NCBI RefSeq assembly: GCF_011745365.1
Contig: NW_024468910.1
Location: forward strand, 2,384,068-2,448,067
DNA: 64,000 bases
Direction of reading: 5' to 3'
Origin: Cryphonectria parasitica EP155
Lineage: Eukaryota; Ascomycota; Sordariomycetes; Diaporthales; Cryphonectriaceae
Both the position numbers and the translations under genes were made by a program. The notes below the pieces were generated by a model. It saw only the letters and a program-made list of their open reading frames with translations. It had not been told where the DNA came from and did not search any database. Below are positions 3,258 through 61,178 of the stretch, in pieces (position 1 is the first letter of the stretch; every line of letters begins with the position of its first letter).

Positions 3258-4262
3258 TCATCCACAAGAGACCTCTTGAGCAAGTATGCTGTCCATGCTT
3301 GCCTCTGAAAAAGAACAAGCCGAGCTGCCCAGCGAGTCCTCAAATGAGAGCGGCTTCTGGCCTGTCAACCTCGCAACCGTATCTGTACCCTGCAGCACCT
3401 GCCCATGGGAGATGAACCTCCCATACGACGCCAGATCTTCCAAGCCTTCATTGGAGTACCGTCCAAAGAAGTCTCCATGCATGCTCGCACCAGCAGACAA
3501 CCGCCGCTCTCTGTGGACAACCTCGGGCTTGTGGTCTGAGACAGGACTTACCGGACAGCTGTCACCACTAACACCACCAGCCCTTGCAGCCATCCACCGC
3601 AGGATCTCCTTGTTCGACACCGCTCTCGGGCCCGTAACCGTATATACTTTGTTCGCCTCTCCTTTTCCCATCAGCAGCGCTCCAAGCACCCGCCCACAGT
3701 CCTCCCTCGCCACGAAGGCTGCTCTGCACTCTTTTCCGCCGAGATCTATCCCTGCCGATGTCCGTCCCGGGGGCGCAAACACTTCGGCGACGGTGTCGAC
3801 GAACAGGCAGTTTCGTTGCACGTTCCACTCTAGTCCACTGGCGCGGACCAGGGCTTCTGTGTATGCATGGTCTCGCGCCAGCGGAGGGGCAGCGTCCTCA
3901 CCAAGCTCGGCACCCACGATGCTTGTGTAGACCAGGCGGCCCACGCCGGCCCTTCGCGCGGCCTCAACCACATTGCGATGCTGGGCGCGGCGGGCGGGAC
4001 CGGCGAGGTAGTTGGGGGAGGAGACAAAGGCGACAACGTCGGCGCCACGAAAGGCTCGTTCGAGGTTTGCTGGGTCGTTGTAGTCGACCATGAGCACACG
4101 AGCGCCGCGCGCAGTCCAGGACGCGAGGAGGGGCCTTGGAACAAAGCCGGGCTTTGGGGAGGTGAAGGTGAGGGTGTCGGTGGGCTTAGCGAGAGTTAAG
4201 GCATAGGAGGCGGCGACGGAGGACAAGTGCCCGTCCACACCGGTGAGTACGTAGGTAGGCAT
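3258..4262 (-). CDS. NmrA-like NAD(P)-binding Rossmann protein
   Basis: A single-exon gene of 334 aa when started at the ATG at 4262, giving an N-terminus (MPTYVLTGVDGHL) that begins right at the first beta strand; an in-frame ATG at 4319 would add 19 residues and is less likely. The order is Rossmann beta1 with a glycine motif, a second strand carrying the arginine-rich stretch before VLMVDYND, ADVVAFVSSPN, then NVVEAARRAGVGRLVYTSIVGAE and a C-terminal substrate lobe. This is the pattern of NmrA/atypical short-chain dehydrogenase proteins, which act as NAD(P) sensors or reductases. The usual TGxTGxxG motif is changed here to TGVDGHLSS, so nucleotide binding may be altered. Substrate and pathway cannot be inferred; the neighbours are unrelated. 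Confidence 0.8.
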   Translation of the reverse strand: MPTYVLTGVDGHLSSVAASYALTLAKPTDTLTFTSPKPGFVPRPLLASWTARGARVLMVDYNDPANLERAFRGADVVAFVSSPNYLAGPARRAQHRNVVEAARRAGVGRLVYTSIVGAELGEDAAPPLARDHAYTEALVRASGLEWNVQRNCLFVDTVAEVFAPPGRTSAGIDLGGKECRAAFVAREDCGRVLGALLMGKGEANKVYTVTGPRAVSNKEILRWMAARAGGVSGDSCPVSPVSDHKPEVVHRERRLSAGASMHGDFFGRYSNEGLEDLASYGRFISHGQVLQGTDTVARLTGQKPLSFEDSLGSSACSFSEASMDSILAQEVSCG

Positions 4263-17469: not shown

Positions 17470-18490
17470 CTAGACCATCCGCCGCTTCTTAGCTGGCCTG
17501 CAGCTCTCGCTCCTAAGCGACGAGCCCCCTTCGTCCCCAATAGAGCCGGTGGAACGACTTTTCTTCCATAGCTGGGTGATCGGATGCAGTGCTCTCAGTG
17601 CGTCTCTGACAATGGGTTGTTGAATCTGTAAAAGCCGTTCAGCGACGTTTTTGACATAGTTGTGACAGCCTTGAATGTCCTTGGCAAAGTAGAATTGGTC
17701 AATATAGGACATGTAGAATGTCTCGTTCTCGGGATTGTAATAGTGCACATGCGCGATGACCTCCCTCTGGCAAATGGCAGCCGAGAAGACAATGGCGTCG
17801 CAGCTCGAACGAGTCCTCTCCGGGTCAATCTGATCTAGCACCCATATCAGCGAGCGGACACGGTGGAAGCCGGCAGTGGCCAGCTGCGCTTCAGCTCCGT
17901 ACAGAGTGCCGCCGGTGGCTTCTGACTTTACCTCGAGGAGAAAAGACGGGAATATGTTCTCTCGTGTAGGTTGCGAGTACGGCCGGACATTTGGATCATC
18001 TGCTGCAACGAGCTCGTCTCGAGTCCATTCCGACCTCAGGGTAGGCTGAAAGCCGACGTGGTGGTCAGTTTTGGGTGTGATAAGCGGGTAGTCGGGGTTT
18101 CGAGGCAGCGGCTTAGATGACCAGAGAACATCGCGTCCGACGGCAAGGGCAGGTTCAGCCAAGTCAAAGAGGGGCGCCGTGATGATGTCCGAGACTGACG
18201 GCTCACAGGTGTCCCAGACCTCCTGGATCTTTCGTCTGACACTGGCCTCTCTATCTCGTTATAAAAAAGGATTTCAATCAGTGAAACCGAAGGGGTATAG
18301 ACACCGCCATCTGAGAGCTTTACCAATCGCCGATATAACTCAGACAGCCCGGCACCAATTCGCTGTGGCCCGTGTGATTATCAAATCAAAATGGGATTGG
18401 GAAATGGGGAGTGGAACTGCATTTGATTGTGGCCACATGCTTCCGTTAGAGTTATGAGATAGTAATTAATCATACTGGCGGCCGCTTCAT
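17470..18490 (-). CDS. PD-(D/E)XK nuclease-like accessory protein
   Basis: The main minus-strand exon (18246-17470) encodes 259 codons with KIQEVWDTCEPSVSD, GRDVLWSSKPLPRNPDYPL, then FPSFLLEVKSEATGGTLYGAEAQLATAGFHRVRSL. The LEVKSEA...AEAQLA block is the E-x-K core of a fungal-specific PD-(D/E)XK-like family (the group annotated as DUF7924 or similar, named from memory). The C-terminus is basic (RPAKKRRMV), like a nuclear localisation signal. Upstream exons 18490-18476 and 18362-18324 can be joined in phase to give 276 aa starting MKRPP, but that N-terminus is tentative. These proteins are patchily distributed in fungi and their biological role is unknown. The gene sits at the edge of a 4-kb gene-poor tract. 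A second, different member of the superfamily is at 58.9 kb. Confidence 0.6.
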
Positions 18491-22647: not shown

Positions 22648-23972
22648 ATGATGGACCACCGATCCAACCTCATGACGCCGTCGCCGCAGGTCAAGTCCGA
22701 GGACTACCTGGGTGAGGACGACATGATGCCCCTGTTTGATGACGGTGCGGACGACCACGCATCGGTGGACCCGTCGAATCTATTGTCCACCCCGGGTGAA
22801 CATTTCCGGGCCATGTCGCCCTCCGATGCGGGGACTCCGGCACCCGAGGGTACACCAGAGACATCCGACAAGAAGCCCACCAAGAAGAGAAAGTCATGGG
22901 GCCAGGTCCTCCCAGAGCCTAAGACAAACCTGCCTCCCAGGTACGTCAAACCCGCCCGCTTTTCAATGACAACTCTCAATCTTACTGACATGTATTTACA
23001 CAGAAAACGGGCCAAGACAGAAGATGAAAAGGAACAACGCCGAGTAGAGCGTGTTCTTCGAAACCGCCGGGCAGCCCAGTCATCCCGTGAGAGGAAGAGG
23101 CTGGAGACGGAAGCCCTGGCCACCCGGAACAAACAACTCGAGGACGCCTTGCTCGCCCTCACCCAACAGTATCAGGTGCTGGAGAAGGAGCTCAAGAAGG
23201 TTAAGCCTGAGCTGGGCGGCATCTCGACGTCCAGTGACTCCCACGTCACCCTCTCCCAGCCGCTCTTCTCGTACCCGGCGCCGGCACCCAAGGTGGCCGA
23301 GGTCGAGCAGCCGGCGCAGCAGGACATCTCCACGATGTCACAGCCGACCCTTGACCTGATCAACAGCCTCGTCAGGCAAGCCCAACAAGAGGCGGACGGA
23401 AACACCCCCAAGACCGTTAACCCGGCCACTATCTCACCCGCCCTCGCACCAATCGCCGAGGAGCCAGAGTCTGAACAGCCCGACGCTGTCACCCCCCTCG
23501 ACTCGGCCGTGCCCCTTCCTCCTCCTTCTCAAGCCGCCAACGTCACGGAGGCTGTTGTCGCCGACTCCACCACCCGTTCGACACAATACTCTGCAGCAGT
23601 ATTGTGTGACCTGCAGTGTCAACGGCTGGTGGAAACGACGACGACACTTTCTTTGACGGCGGTCTCGGAGCTGCAGAGCCTGGCTCTGCATTTTTCGACA
23701 ACCTTCTTCACATTCCTGACTTTGGCGATATCCCTTCGCCAGAGGCAAGCTCTATTGATTTCGATTATCAAGCTGGTGACCAACCATCCGACCTCGACTT
23801 CACCACCACGTGGGACGAGTACATGTCCAACCCTGCCGACAATGACGACAGCTACGGGTTCCTGCAAGCCCCTGCGTCTCCGGCTCCTGCGGAAGCTTCT
23901 AACCAGCAACCGACAGCTGGCGCGTCCTCTTCTGGATGCGACGCTCGAGGTATTGCGGTCGAGGCAAAGTAG
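22648..23972 (+). CDS. hacA: HacA/Hac1 unfolded-protein-response bZIP factor
   Basis: Active form: exons 22648-22940, 23004-23593 and 23614-23972, giving 413 aa. The first gap is an ordinary GT-AG intron; the second is a 20-nt unconventional intron cut by Ire1. The DNA-binding region, from KKRKSWGQVLPEPKTNLPP through KRAKTEDEKEQRR to RNRRAAQSSRERKR (about residues 75-130), followed by a leucine zipper, is diagnostic of HacA. After Ire1 splicing the frame shifts into an acidic tail (STAGGNDDDTFFDGGLGAAEP...) ending at 23972. The unspliced message instead stays open to 24201 and would give 496 aa with a basic, Arg-rich tail. HacA switches on ER chaperone and secretion genes in the nucleus. The start is MM, with an A at -3. 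Confidence 0.95.
23581..23621 (+). promoter_or_regulatory. Ire1 twin stem-loops for hacA splicing
   Basis: Stem 1 pairs 23581-23590 with 23598-23607 (10 bp) around the 7-nt loop CTGCAGC; stem 2 pairs 23607-23610 with 23618-23621 around CTGCAGT. Both loops fit the Ire1 consensus, with cuts after CTG, so bases 23594-23613 (20 nt) are excised and rejoined by tRNA ligase. The excision puts the acidic C-terminal frame in register. Confidence 0.93.
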
Positions 23973-57474: not shown

Positions 57475-57542
57475 ACATACGACCATAGGTAGTGGAGAAC
57501 TTGGGATCCCGTCTGCTCTCCCCTAAATAAGCCACTAACCGC
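57475..57542 (+). pseudogene. 5S rRNA, 5' part (positions 1-68)
   Basis: Begins ACATACGACCATA and continues through GGGATCCCGTCTGCTCTCCC and AATAAGCCAC, aligning without gaps to the recalled Neurospora-type 5S rRNA positions 1-68. GGTAGTGG (positions 13-20) can still pair with CCACTA-A-CC, including the expected bulge, so the helix is kept by compensating changes. The match stops after TAACCGC at 57542. Position 69 onward resumes 3.6 kb away at 61130, so the gene is interrupted and cannot make a normal 5S RNA. Confidence 0.85.
57536..57542. repeat. Left copy of 7-bp target-site duplication TAACCGC
   Basis: The last seven bases of the 5S 5' part; an identical copy is at 61123-61129, just before the 5S 3' part. 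Confidence 0.8.
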
Positions 57543-57611
57543 TCTCTTAGATCTCGTCTCTCCTCGGATTGTAAAATTGCTGTTCGTCGGCCGATTCTTG
57601 TGGCTCCGTAG

Positions 57612-58587
57612 ACGGTCAGAATCCGTTGCGGTTACGTATGCGGCCGAACTTGTTGGCCATACAGACTTGGCGGGCCGGCCCATGCTAAGTGTCAGCCGCC
57701 TACATATGCAGAACCGATACCGCCTCCCAATCATATTTTGGAGCATGCCTCAAACTACATCATCAATAAATCAAGCCGGGCCTTGCGGGCACAGGAATCC
57801 TTCCGCATCTACGCCAACGAATCTATTGACGATTTTGACAAGAGGTACTGTCGCACCGAGGATATGTCGATGGTAAACGCGTGGGACGCGTGGGAGCAGT
57901 ATGTCTACCTATCTACCACGGGTATAGAGCATGTTCCAAATACTGATGGGGCAGCTTTGCGTGACTAGCTTTTTTTTTTTATCAACGTGCTGCCTATAGC
58001 CGATCCGGCTGGTATCTGGTATGGCATGTGTCACAGTGACGCCAATGCGAAACGGCTGTGCCAGACGTTCCTTCGGGATTTTGTCGAAAGCTCTGTCACA
58101 TACCGGCCGACACTTACATCGGAGTGTTGGGAGCCGGTCCGGACGCTCACGACAGCTAAGACTGTGCAGGGTACAGCGGGGACGAGAGTATTTGACCTTG
58201 GCAGCGTGAATCCAGAGAACACGGTACAGTTCCTCGCAAACCTGCAGCGCAAGGCGGGTCTGATTACCATGCCGCTGCATGAGCAGTTTGACTTGATCAT
58301 CGCCTCCGATGTTGGTACGCGCCAAACCTCTTACTCGGGGCCAGTCCTTCGAGCTGACAGCAGCAAGCATCTTTTTTGTAATCGCAATATTCCTAGAGGG
58401 ATGGCCCCACGAGGACTGGCCGGTACCATGCTCAACGATTGAAGGGCCCGAAATTCGGGAGGAAAGGAAATATCAGCTTCGGCAACAGATTAACGTGGAA
58501 CTTGAACGACGTCAAGTACATGAACGGAGTGCCAGCTGTCATTCGTGCTGGCCATCGACTATACTCCAACTTTCTCGCAAAAGCTGA
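57612..58587 (+). CDS. Unrecognised element-borne gene, start unresolved
   Basis: Three exons join in phase: 57612-57960, 58000-58314 and 58397-58587, giving 284 open codons and a stop. The first intron would be only 39 nt (GTGACT...CTATAG, with ATCAAC as a branch candidate); the second (82 nt) starts GTACGC and ends CCTAG. The joined text includes RALRAQESFRIYANESIDDFDKRY, AWDAWEQYVYLSTTGIEH, then PDPAGIWYGMCHSDANAKRLCQTFLRDF and GWPHEDWPVPC...IREERKYQLRQQINVELERRQ (a likely helix). I recognise no domain. There is no ATG near the start of the open frame; the first in-frame ATG is at 57864 (200 aa). Either the gene is 5'-truncated, its first exon is missed, or it starts at 57864. Confidence 0.4.
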
Positions 58588-58887
58588 TAGGGATCAAGCA
58601 TAAATCCTGCACCTGCAGACGACCAGGAGGCCTTGCTAATGTGCCATGCAGCCGCCAGCAGAAGTAGCGTGATTTCAGAGCCCGTAATTGAATACTGAAC
58701 ACTAGCCTCCCGAAGTCGGCGCTTAAAAGTAGCCGCTGCTAGTGTGCTTGGCACACGTTGCCCTGATGCGATGCCGCACTCCACCATCAGCGATGACCAA
58801 CGTTTGAACTCCGCTTTGCTTTCCAAGGTCGAAGTTGTATACATACCCACGCGTATCGCCTCGACCACAGCTACATTGAAGCCCACC

Positions 58888-60367
58888 ATGGCTAAGAGAC
58901 CACGCGTGAGCCAAACGCAGGACAGCCCGCCCACGAAGAAGGCCCGGACTTCCTGCAATTCCTCCTTGACGCGTCGCGCTCTTCGAAAGCTTCAACGACC
59001 GAACGTACGGCAGCCCGTATGCCAAGCACCTCAGCAGACCCGTGGATTTGAGGTATCGGACCTGCGTCGCTACGCAAGGAACGGAGGGCCAGATCTAACA
59101 TCTCTTCGAGGAGTACGGATCCTACAGCCCTGCATGTGGAATGTCACCATCTAACGCGAAAGCATAGTTTCCCCCACCGAACACTCGCAAGATGGCAGCC
59201 TCGGGCTCGTCATTCTCGAAGCAGCAGTCCAAGCGCACGTTGACCGATGACACGAGCGTATATAGCAAGAGGTTCTCTGCTACTGATTCCACATTCGAGC
59301 GAATACTGGTGAGACACAATATCTTCTCCGACGGTCATGGCTATCATGAGCATGTTCCCATCGTACAGCATGCCAACTCAGCCGAAATCCGGCAAAGACT
59401 ATTAGCATCCAGAGCAAGTCTTTCGCCGTCCCGGCGCGATGAGTCTGAGTACAAACGCTTCAAAGAAGCCAATACAATTGCGCTGTCGGAGTCCAAGGTG
59501 ATGAGCTGCGTCGTGCCTTTTTTTACTGGCCAAGGTTCTGGAACTCCAATCGCAAGCCAGGAGAATCTTGTCTTCAACAACCTTACTTCCCTTACCAACA
59601 GGGCTACTGTCGATCCAAAACCTGATATGTACGATGGGGCTACCTTCACACAAGTCCACGCCCAAGTACAAGATGATCTTGATTCGTTGATCGTTCCAAC
59701 CAAGCATGTATACGCACCTATTGCCCCAAACTATTTCTTTGAAGCCAAATCATCACTTGGGCTACCGCACGAAGGCAAGCAGCAAATCACATACGATATA
59801 GCGGCAGGGACCCGGGCAATGAATGCGCTCCAGAACTACAGAGAGGTATCAACAGCACCGTATGATGGAAATGCTTATACTCTTGGAGCAACTTACCATG
59901 GGTCGGGGATGCTCAAAATCTATGCAGGACATATGCACCCTGGGCAAATGGGACCAGAGACACACGTCACCCAGGTCAAAGGATTCGACATAACCGATGA
60001 TGCTGACGCCTATTTCAAAGGTGTGGCAGCTTTCCGAAATGCGCGCGAACTTGCACACGAGTTTCGCAACGATTTGGTCGAGTCTGCAAATTCGAGGGCG
60101 CAAGCTGCGGAATACCAACCGCAAGTTTTGCAAGATGTGGTGGAGGGCGAAGACGAGGACGAGGACGAGGATGTAAATGGTGATGGAGATGAACCCACTA
60201 CAATGACATGGCCGTCGGTAGTCTCGAGCCCAGCAGCGAGAGCTCCGTCTTCGAGGACGCGGACGAGCACGATCCGATCAACAAAACCTAACACCCGTTC
60301 TAAGCGTGGACGTTCATCATCACCCCCAAAGCGGAGGACAAGGTCGCATGCAGGGAAACGACCATAA
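58888..60367 (+). CDS. PD-(D/E)XK nuclease-like protein of the 5S-inserted element
   Basis: Exons 58888-59112 and 59168-60367 give 474 aa. The ATG at 58888 has an excellent context (CCACCATGG). The 55-bp intron has GTACGG, CTAAC and TAG and joins PDLTSLRG to FPPPNTRK. After a basic N-terminus (MAKRPRV, PPTKKAR) come RASLSPSRRDESEYKRFKEAN, DMYDGATFTQVHAQVQDDL, then the core IAPNYFFEAKSS (E-x-K at about residues 265-267), KQQITYDIAAGTRAMNALQNY and YDGNAYTLGATYHGSGMLKIY, which I recognise from a large fungal-specific PD-(D/E)XK-like family. The tail is acidic then strongly basic (RSKRGRSSSPPKRRTRSH). Family members are often in repeats or accessory regions; their role is unknown. The reading frame is intact. 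Confidence 0.8.
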
Positions 60368-61122
60368 GTGCTTTGTACTCGGTCTGTGAGCTTGTCTGTG
60401 AAGTAACGAGTGACTGTTCCTGTGCATGACACGAGAATTGGGTTCCATTGCCGATATCGCTTTAAGGCGAATGGATTCGGTAGTAGCAAATGTAGCACTA
60501 GATAAGAATTACTTTACCATGCCCAAAGATGTCGGCCAGGGCCAGGCATATAACAGTACGGCGAGCTGACGTGCCGGATGTGGGCTGGCCTGGAAGCAGA
60601 AGCTTCACAGCAGGGTTACCGGCAACCAGTGCCGTCAAATGTTCTCACTTGACAGTAAGACTTTCTAGTGTTCAACTTACTTGACAGTAATACTTTGATC
60701 CACAGCACAACTTACTGGACACAAATACAATTATCATGCTAGTAAGCATAAAGCTGTATCAAAGAGTGACCAGTTACAGATTTTGTAATGCTATTATATT
60801 GATAGTAAGTTGGGCGAGGCTTACGGCAGGCTGTTAGCAACACCGTAAATCACCAGGCAGTTTAGTTATTCTTGCTCAATAATAAGTATTAACAGGTTCA
60901 AAATAACATAGCAGTCACCGAAATTTGGGAGAGGGGGGGGGGGGTATCTCTAGTAGGGTGATTGAAGGTAACGGGGGCTAGAGGCGGACGGTGGGCGGAC
61001 GGTGTTCGGCTGTCAGACCGTTCCGTAGGCCGGGGCGTCAGTATCTAGGTTCCTCAACACCACGCCGCAGGGCTCCAAGATCGTCAGAAAACCAGGGCAA
61101 GAAATCAAAAGCGAAAACGCCA
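60368..61122. other. Non-coding 3' tail of the insertion
   Basis: AT-rich at 60640-60930. An 18-bp direct repeat with one mismatch lies at 60647-60664 (ACTTGACAGTAAGACTTT) and 60679-60696. There is a G12 run at 60933-60944, then a GGCGGACGGT-type doublet near 60982-61002. No gene. Confidence 0.6.
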
Positions 61123-61129
61123 TAACCGC
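61123..61129. repeat. Right copy of 7-bp target-site duplication TAACCGC
   Basis: Identical to 57536-57542 and immediately followed by the rest of the 5S gene. Confidence 0.8.
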
Positions 61130-61178
61130 CGGATTAGTAGTTAAGTGATGACCATTAGCGAATACCCGGTGTTATATG
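61130..61178 (+). pseudogene. 5S rRNA, 3' part (position 69 to end)
   Basis: CGGATTAGTAGTTAAGTG, then GACCATTAGCGAAT and CCCGGTGTTATATG, align with 5S positions 69 to ~118. Against the recalled Neurospora-type sequence most differences are GG to AA, CC to TT or G to A transitions, with one base missing; TTATATG in place of TTGTATG breaks a pair of the terminal helix. Together with 57475-57542 it would make 117 bases, normal 5S length. The transitions look like repeat-induced point mutation or plain decay. Confidence 0.85.

Follow-up and report, generated by a model that had tools for sequence, protein, structure and literature searches.

What is the DNA that lies inside a split 5S rRNA gene of Cryphonectria parasitica EP155, and how did it come to be there? 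The stretch analyzed here (the window) covers 64,000 nt of contig C2 (C2:2384068-2448067), and positions within the element are given in window coordinates. In this window, a 5S rRNA gene is interrupted by 3,580 bp lying between two copies of the heptamer TAACCGC. We consider it quite probable that the interrupting DNA is an internally deleted Starship-type element of a 5S-targeting captain lineage, integrated in a fixed orientation at 5S positions 62-68. Both junctions are present, other 5S genes are broken at nearly the same place, and homology was found among the captain pieces and between the 3′ ends.

The 5′ half of the gene (57475-57542, + strand; 5S positions 1-68) is identical at 68 of 68 bases to seven other 5S genes of the EP155 genome, all of them intact copies, and it ends in the left TAACCGC repeat (57536-57542, +; 5S positions 62-68). 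The right copy of this 7-bp direct repeat (61123-61129, +) runs directly into the 3′ half (61130-61178, +; position 69 to the end), which is followed by a T-run. Read ungapped, 61123-61178 resumes the gene at position 62, and BLAST with one gap allowed extended the match back to position 57. An earlier note on this DNA had described the gene as split with TAACCGC on both flanks and as giving a 117-nt 5S when one repeat copy is removed, and both descriptions were reproduced. Set against an intact copy, the rejoined gene, an inferred empty site only, shows three changes (one deleted nucleotide and two G-to-A substitutions), each of them in the 3′ half. By itself the heptamer is unremarkable, occurring 7 times on both strands of the window against 7.8 expected; it is the placement of both copies in register at the break points, together with the nearly identical break site of other 5S genes, that goes beyond chance. 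Rfam, run on the window at the gathering threshold, missed the split gene, which scored 33.4 bits in a genome search with the 5S covariance model, below the cut-off of 38. Because the insertion site lies in the transcribed region and within what we take to be the internal promoter of the 5S gene, the interrupted copy should be dead; 20 intact copies remain.

A BLAST search of the genome with an intact 5S returned 26 matches, comprising the 20 intact genes, one diverged copy (C8:716893), the two window halves and three other partial copies. The covariance model, which listed this diverged copy as C8:716895, added a second one at C8:1049215. The three partial copies are two 5′ halves standing alone, L030 (C4:4194102-4194175, -) and L031 (C1:4631399-4631471, -), and an orphan 3′ half, L032 (C1:5419739-5419799, +). 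In a pattern search, the exact end of the 5′ half was found at 22 places, 3 of them interrupted, and at one extra place with 2 mismatches, while the start of the 3′ half was found at 21 places, one being the orphan L032; the 3′ half in the window escaped this search through its 1-nt deletion. The 5′ halves end at 5S position 68 in the window, 73 in L031 and 73 or 74 in L030 (the next base fits too), and both free 3′ halves, read ungapped, begin at position 62. Four broken 5S loci are thereby set against 20 intact and two diverged copies, and they represent three or four broken genes, because the orphan 3′ half could pair with either orphan 5′ half. L031 and L032 may be the two ends of one element parted by an inversion on C1, for which the strands would be right and the repeat would be TAAGGGCCGGAT (12 bp); equally, L030 and L032 could be partners after a translocation. 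Beside the orphan halves of C1, L031:1342-1432 and L032:968-1058 are 84.6% identical over 91 bp in matching element orientation.

With three interrupted 5′ halves and two detached 3′ halves in the genome, 5S genes do look like the regular home of a family, as the earlier note had thought possible. The listing of 5S copies that it proposed showed two more interrupted 5′ halves and the orphan 3′ half, the other 5′ halves ending at 73-74 and not at 68. These loci also bear on the simplest alternative, namely a chance spacing of 3.6 kb between two unrelated halves of 5S pseudogenes. Diverged 5S copies such as the two on C8 do exist, but the window halves share one strand, exact register and a duplicated heptamer, and other 5S genes are broken near the same position with related DNA; register and parallel loci effectively refute this alternative, to which we assign next to no probability. 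The DNA looks like the remnant of a mobile element inside the 5S coding region.

We found captain pieces downstream of the 5S 5′ halves, all on the 5S strand. In the window these putative pieces are fragments only and lie at 57.68-58.18 kb on the + strand, reading inward, with the first within 150 bp of the 5′ junction. An exon-like open reading frame (ORF; 57612-57965, +) probably represents the N-terminus of the captain, and its amino acids 25-66 (about 57684-57809) match a fragment at the corresponding place of L031. It is followed by an apparent N-terminal region of a captain, a tyrosine recombinase of the DUF3435 type, which is then truncated (58002-58178, +) and matches the L030 gene at E 2e-10, a three-sequence profile at E 1e-6 and, genome-wide, at E 1.3e-4. 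Six-frame comparison aligned window 57969-58439 with L030:4016-3621(-) at 37% over 65 aa (E 2e-10) and window 57612-57965 with L031:3631-3311(-) at 36% over 33 aa (E 7e-5). The window and L031 pieces are mutual best matches, at E 1.4e-4 against the 7,415 ORFs of the 57 compared loci and at 2.6e-4 in reverse. An ORF resembling an HNH_2 nuclease (L031:1509-2939, +; E 7.7e-9) lies in the DNA following the C1 5′ half, on the strand opposite to the captain piece.

Beyond themselves and the window, the L030 pieces have matches at five places in the genome. Three of these lie at most 0.6 kb upstream, on the same strand, of hits to the DUF3435 “captain” recombinase: C6:541897-542519 (L054; best E 4.5e-17; DUF3435 at C6:542710), C2:964691-964948 (best E 1.8e-7; DUF3435 at C2:965137) and C2:2202957-2203193 (best E 1.6e-5; DUF3435 at C2:2203754). 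A profile built from L054 and L057, the latter on C4, found L030 at E 6e-19 and 9e-16, and it also found both C2 genes adjoining DUF3435, L055 (E 3e-11) and L056 (E 7e-6). When L030 was added to the profile, the window fragment was recovered at E 1e-6 as the sole window match with E up to 1, and the best match of this profile in the reversed window (1,740 ORFs) had E 2.2. The captain identification came from the genome itself; a database search with the captain-gene model gave 398 candidates, none at E ≤ 0.001. In L050-L057, around the other captains, Rfam showed no 5S, and the matches to 5S sequence were no longer than 10-11 nt, as arise by chance (loci of 2.2-3.8 kb each; 5S pieces may lie further off). 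In addition, a tRNA match of 49 bits (L054:1555-1654, +, equal to C6:541054-541153), not reported by ARAGORN, lies about 0.7 kb upstream of the C6 captain match, whose captain carries an in-frame stop; a tRNA gene could be the target of that captain.

At the other end of the element, the last 300 bases before the right repeat were compared with the corresponding DNA of the orphan 3′ half L032, and the two are collinear over 68 columns with a score of 39, which none of 1000 first-order Markov randomisations equalled. The shared 3′-terminal segment (61023-61086, +) lies at an equal distance from the junction in both loci, and mixed controls of the end comparison were equalled by 142 and 488 of 1000. 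A profile of this 3′ end found no third copy among the compared loci, the 5S itself apart. The earlier note had proposed a genome-wide search for relatives, which gave no second copy of the whole unit and did give related captain pieces and a related 3′ end at other broken 5S loci. The possibility of an RNA structure in the 3′ end was rejected (z +1.56; 196 of 200 shuffles fold as well). Three imperfect 28-nt direct repeats, spaced 32-35 bases apart, occupy 60641-60735 in the 3′ part (reference copy CAACTTACTTGACAGTAATACTTTGATC). Indices of repeat-induced point mutation (RIP) were 0.79 (TpA/ApT) and 1.19 ((CA+TG)/(AC+GT)) for the whole element, against 0.64-0.88 and 1.10-1.28 for the flanks; the non-coding 3′ part (60368-61122) gave 1.23 and 1.04, a mild sign, and decay by RIP is not needed to explain the element.

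From these features we infer integration by a captain, a larger ancestor and a deletion after insertion. A tyrosine recombinase captain would join the element to 5S at a short shared core starting at position 62 and in a single orientation, with the captain end at the 5S 5′ half (three cases, one weak) and the other end at the 3′ half (two cases). Under this mechanism the direct repeat would represent the crossover core, as opposed to the product of filling in a staggered cut. A later internal deletion would have removed most of the element and fused the N-terminal part of the captain to a piece of a cargo gene, leaving the 5′ end with its captain stub, one intact DUF7924-like cargo gene (a predicted nuclease) and the 3′ end. 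As in Starships, a captain fragment stands at the 5′ end reading inward and short direct repeats stand at both ends, and as expected of 5S targeting, insertion into the 5S coding sequence is repeated (the L031 link being weaker). The link to Starships that the earlier note had raised fits. We call the element a remnant, a well-preserved one of a known kind of element, and not a working Starship because the catalytic DUF3435 domain and the expected size (3,580 bp lie between the repeats) are missing.

Several observations weigh against this interpretation. The catalytic domain of the captain was not found in the element, the genome hits to PF11917 omitting it and Pfam being silent on the fragments, and 3.58 kb is far under published Starship sizes. 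The assignment of the window fragment to captains runs through L030 as a bridge: with the L054 and L057 profile alone the fragment reaches only E 0.13. The window/L031 match is weak genome-wide (E 0.08). Two of the five places matched by L030, C4:1540822-1541422 (L057) and C2:478253, have no DUF3435 hit in the PF11917 genome search. In the single fungal genome analysed, no empty allele was seen. The implied repeat length differs, being 7 bp in the window and up to 12 bp at the other loci. The 5′ ends are not significantly alike in DNA, their score being reached by 69, 193 and 681 of 1000 randomised sequences, and local alignment of the two 300-bp ends found no terminal inverted repeat (648 of 1000 as good), although short ones could escape it.

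Signs of deletion were found inside the element. Captain homology in the window ends at about 58178, where it abuts a fragment of a second gene (58170-58603, +) that is fused directly to the truncated captain and belongs to the RING-finger family of P0121 and L049. P0121, the one database homologue of this piece, matches 58170-58331 at E 5e-13 with 57% identity, and L049 matches the fragment at E 2e-10 and 3e-10; the RING-like finger of the family was seen in L049 as Pfam zf-C3HC4 at E 0.047, below cut-off. L030 has a parallel deletion: its captain match breaks off near 3356, and from about 3360 a different frame encodes a stretch resembling ferric reductase (Pfam Ferric_reduct, 27.4 bits with the cut-off at 28, E 3.8e-6). 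Candidate cargo in the broken 5S loci comprises the DUF7924-like ORF and the RING-type piece in the window and the ferric reductase-like ORF, below cut-off, in L030; ferric reductase and patatin-like genes are named among those prevalent in Starships in the available text of PMC12134995. We rejected a patatin-like phosphatase identity for 58170-58603, keeping it as a resemblance only (a RING followed by a patatin-like start): Pfam gave no patatin for the window piece, L049, P0121 or L058, and the eight patatin hits listed for the genome all lie elsewhere. Pfam searches of 5 of the 24 listed ORFs of the element region gave no family above cut-off (best E 0.039). Two more members of the P0121 family, of RING type and 28-31% identical, lie at C6:1940265-1940771 and C6:1986449-1986772, each about 8-9 kb from a captain hit (C6:1949504 and C6:1978353). 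Adjoining the RING-type gene of C2 is a 582-codon open frame for a DDE_1 transposase with a Tc5-type DNA-binding domain (L049:521-2269, +).

The earlier note had seen no recognisable enzyme in the element, which no longer holds: its 5′ end carries fragments of a captain tyrosine recombinase, and one ORF is intact and predicted to have the fold of a nuclease. This 391-aa ORF (59192-60367, +) is homologous to many proteins with a precomputed PF25545 (DUF7924) domain, among the database matches being P0002, a partial C. parasitica EP155 protein with 100% identity over 74% of the query. The ORF has no Pfam DUF7924 hit at the gathering score and is absent from the 25 DUF7924 hits of the genome; its relative P0004 reaches 26.5 bits, just under the cut-off of 27. 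D145, D148, E184, K186 and Q198, each conserved in at least 90% of 120 sequences, are all kept, and the product is predicted to be a PD-(D/E)XK nuclease. In predicted fold and in its acidic, ExK and Q residues it resembles PD-(D/E)XK nucleases such as EcoRI, NucC and the nuclease domain of DrdV. The stretch 58717-60171 (+) is 79% identical in DNA to a copy at C11:612488-613914 (L029:3989-5415) whose frame is broken and whose D145 equivalent is changed to N; L029 has no 5S match. The DUF7924 copies differ at a synonymous divergence (dS) of 0.65-0.85 with a ratio of nonsynonymous to synonymous divergence (dN/dS) of 0.15-0.19, which suggests purifying selection on the ORF.

This ORF invites another explanation, in which cleavage of the 5S gene by the DUF7924-like nuclease was followed by insertion of the DNA through repair or homing, and the captain pieces are incidental passengers. 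The PD-(D/E)XK motif, the fitting predicted fold and the purifying selection would suit such a role, but no DUF7924-like match was found in the 9-kb loci L030 and L031, the 23 merged DUF7924 loci and the 5S matches do not coincide anywhere, and it is captain pieces, not DUF7924, that the broken 5′ halves have in common. We regard this explanation as very unlikely. A further alternative, which we rate as unlikely but less so, is that the 3.58-kb unit was itself mobile: a non-autonomous mini-Starship, driven in trans by an intact captain located elsewhere, with the nuclease gene as its only complete gene. The perfect 7/7 repeat, the presence of both ends, the intact cargo ORF and a 5S gene still matching at 68 of 68 bases in its 5′ half, with only 3 changes in 117 nt, agree with this; because the 5S halves are nearly unchanged, the insertion seems recent relative to the divergence among the DUF7924 copies. 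Yet the genome search recovered the whole unit once only, and the sole other long match, the C11 copy, lacks both ends. Starships moving at 3.6 kb are not reported in the literature seen; the pipeline of PMC12153272 treats anything shorter than 15 kb as an indel of a captain gene and discards it. The deleted, 5S-targeting Starship remains the reading that we prefer.

After merging of hits, the genome has 23 DUF7924 loci and 18 captain loci (DUF3435 hits plus three from the L030-piece matches). Of the DUF7924 loci, five have a captain within 10 kb, where random placement on the same contig predicts 0.59 (p 6e-4); four of these five are located on the captain's cargo side, whereas the fifth (C2:961326) is upstream. 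A shared genome compartment may alone explain this proximity. The association suggests a possible context for a large unstudied fungal family, and the literature found here that mentions DUF7924 does not mention Starships in its main text. More speculatively, DUF7924 could be a nuclease family that travels with Starships, perhaps helping or policing them, and the 3.6-kb DNA a mini-Starship moving in trans into 5S with the predicted PD-(D/E)XK nuclease as its one working gene; we rate this whole scenario as unlikely. A second DUF7924 hit in the window (17599-18243, -; 53.8 bits) lies about 39 kb from the element. Elsewhere in the window, Rfam reported the bZIP Hac1/Xbp1 non-canonical intron at 23566-23633 (+; 55 bits), presumably marking HAC1 with its unconventional intron.

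Taken together, the evidence points to 5S-targeting Starships in the chestnut blight fungus. That Starships enter 5S genes is known already; what is new is a 3.6-kb remnant with both junctions, the host, and the association of DUF7924 with captains. Our literature search found no report of 5S-targeting Starships in C. parasitica, and in the available text of PMC12134995 the species is named only in a reference. The common break at 62-74, the single orientation and the shared 3′ end provide a defined site for studying how captains choose their targets, and the results suggest split 5S genes as fossils by which lost Starships could be counted. The element in the window would be missed by the pipeline of PMC12153272, judging from its accessible text, with its 15-kb limit.

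Among known systems, R2-like or other retroelements that target ribosomal genes are alike in using an rRNA gene as a repeated target and unlike in that no reverse transcriptase domain was present in the 5 of 24 listed element ORFs that were scanned. For Starships, the accessible parts of PMC12153272 give sizes of roughly 16-700 kb, a captain at the 5′ end of the element, terminal inverted repeats in 18 of 20 and direct repeats of 2-12 bp, those over 6 bp going with 5S targets; 5S as a Starship target is mentioned too in the portions seen of PMC12134995 and PMC10128009. The closest counterpart is Osiris, a navis of the Enterprise family, whose Starships insert into and fragment 5S rDNA in Aspergillus fumigatus (PMC12153272, same parts). 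Its four type elements measure 37,633-138,260 bp, whereas the window element has 3,580 bp and only a captain stub. In both, 5S rDNA is the target and is broken up by the insertion, the flanking direct repeats are longer than 6 bp, and the captain (here a stub) lies at the 5′ end.

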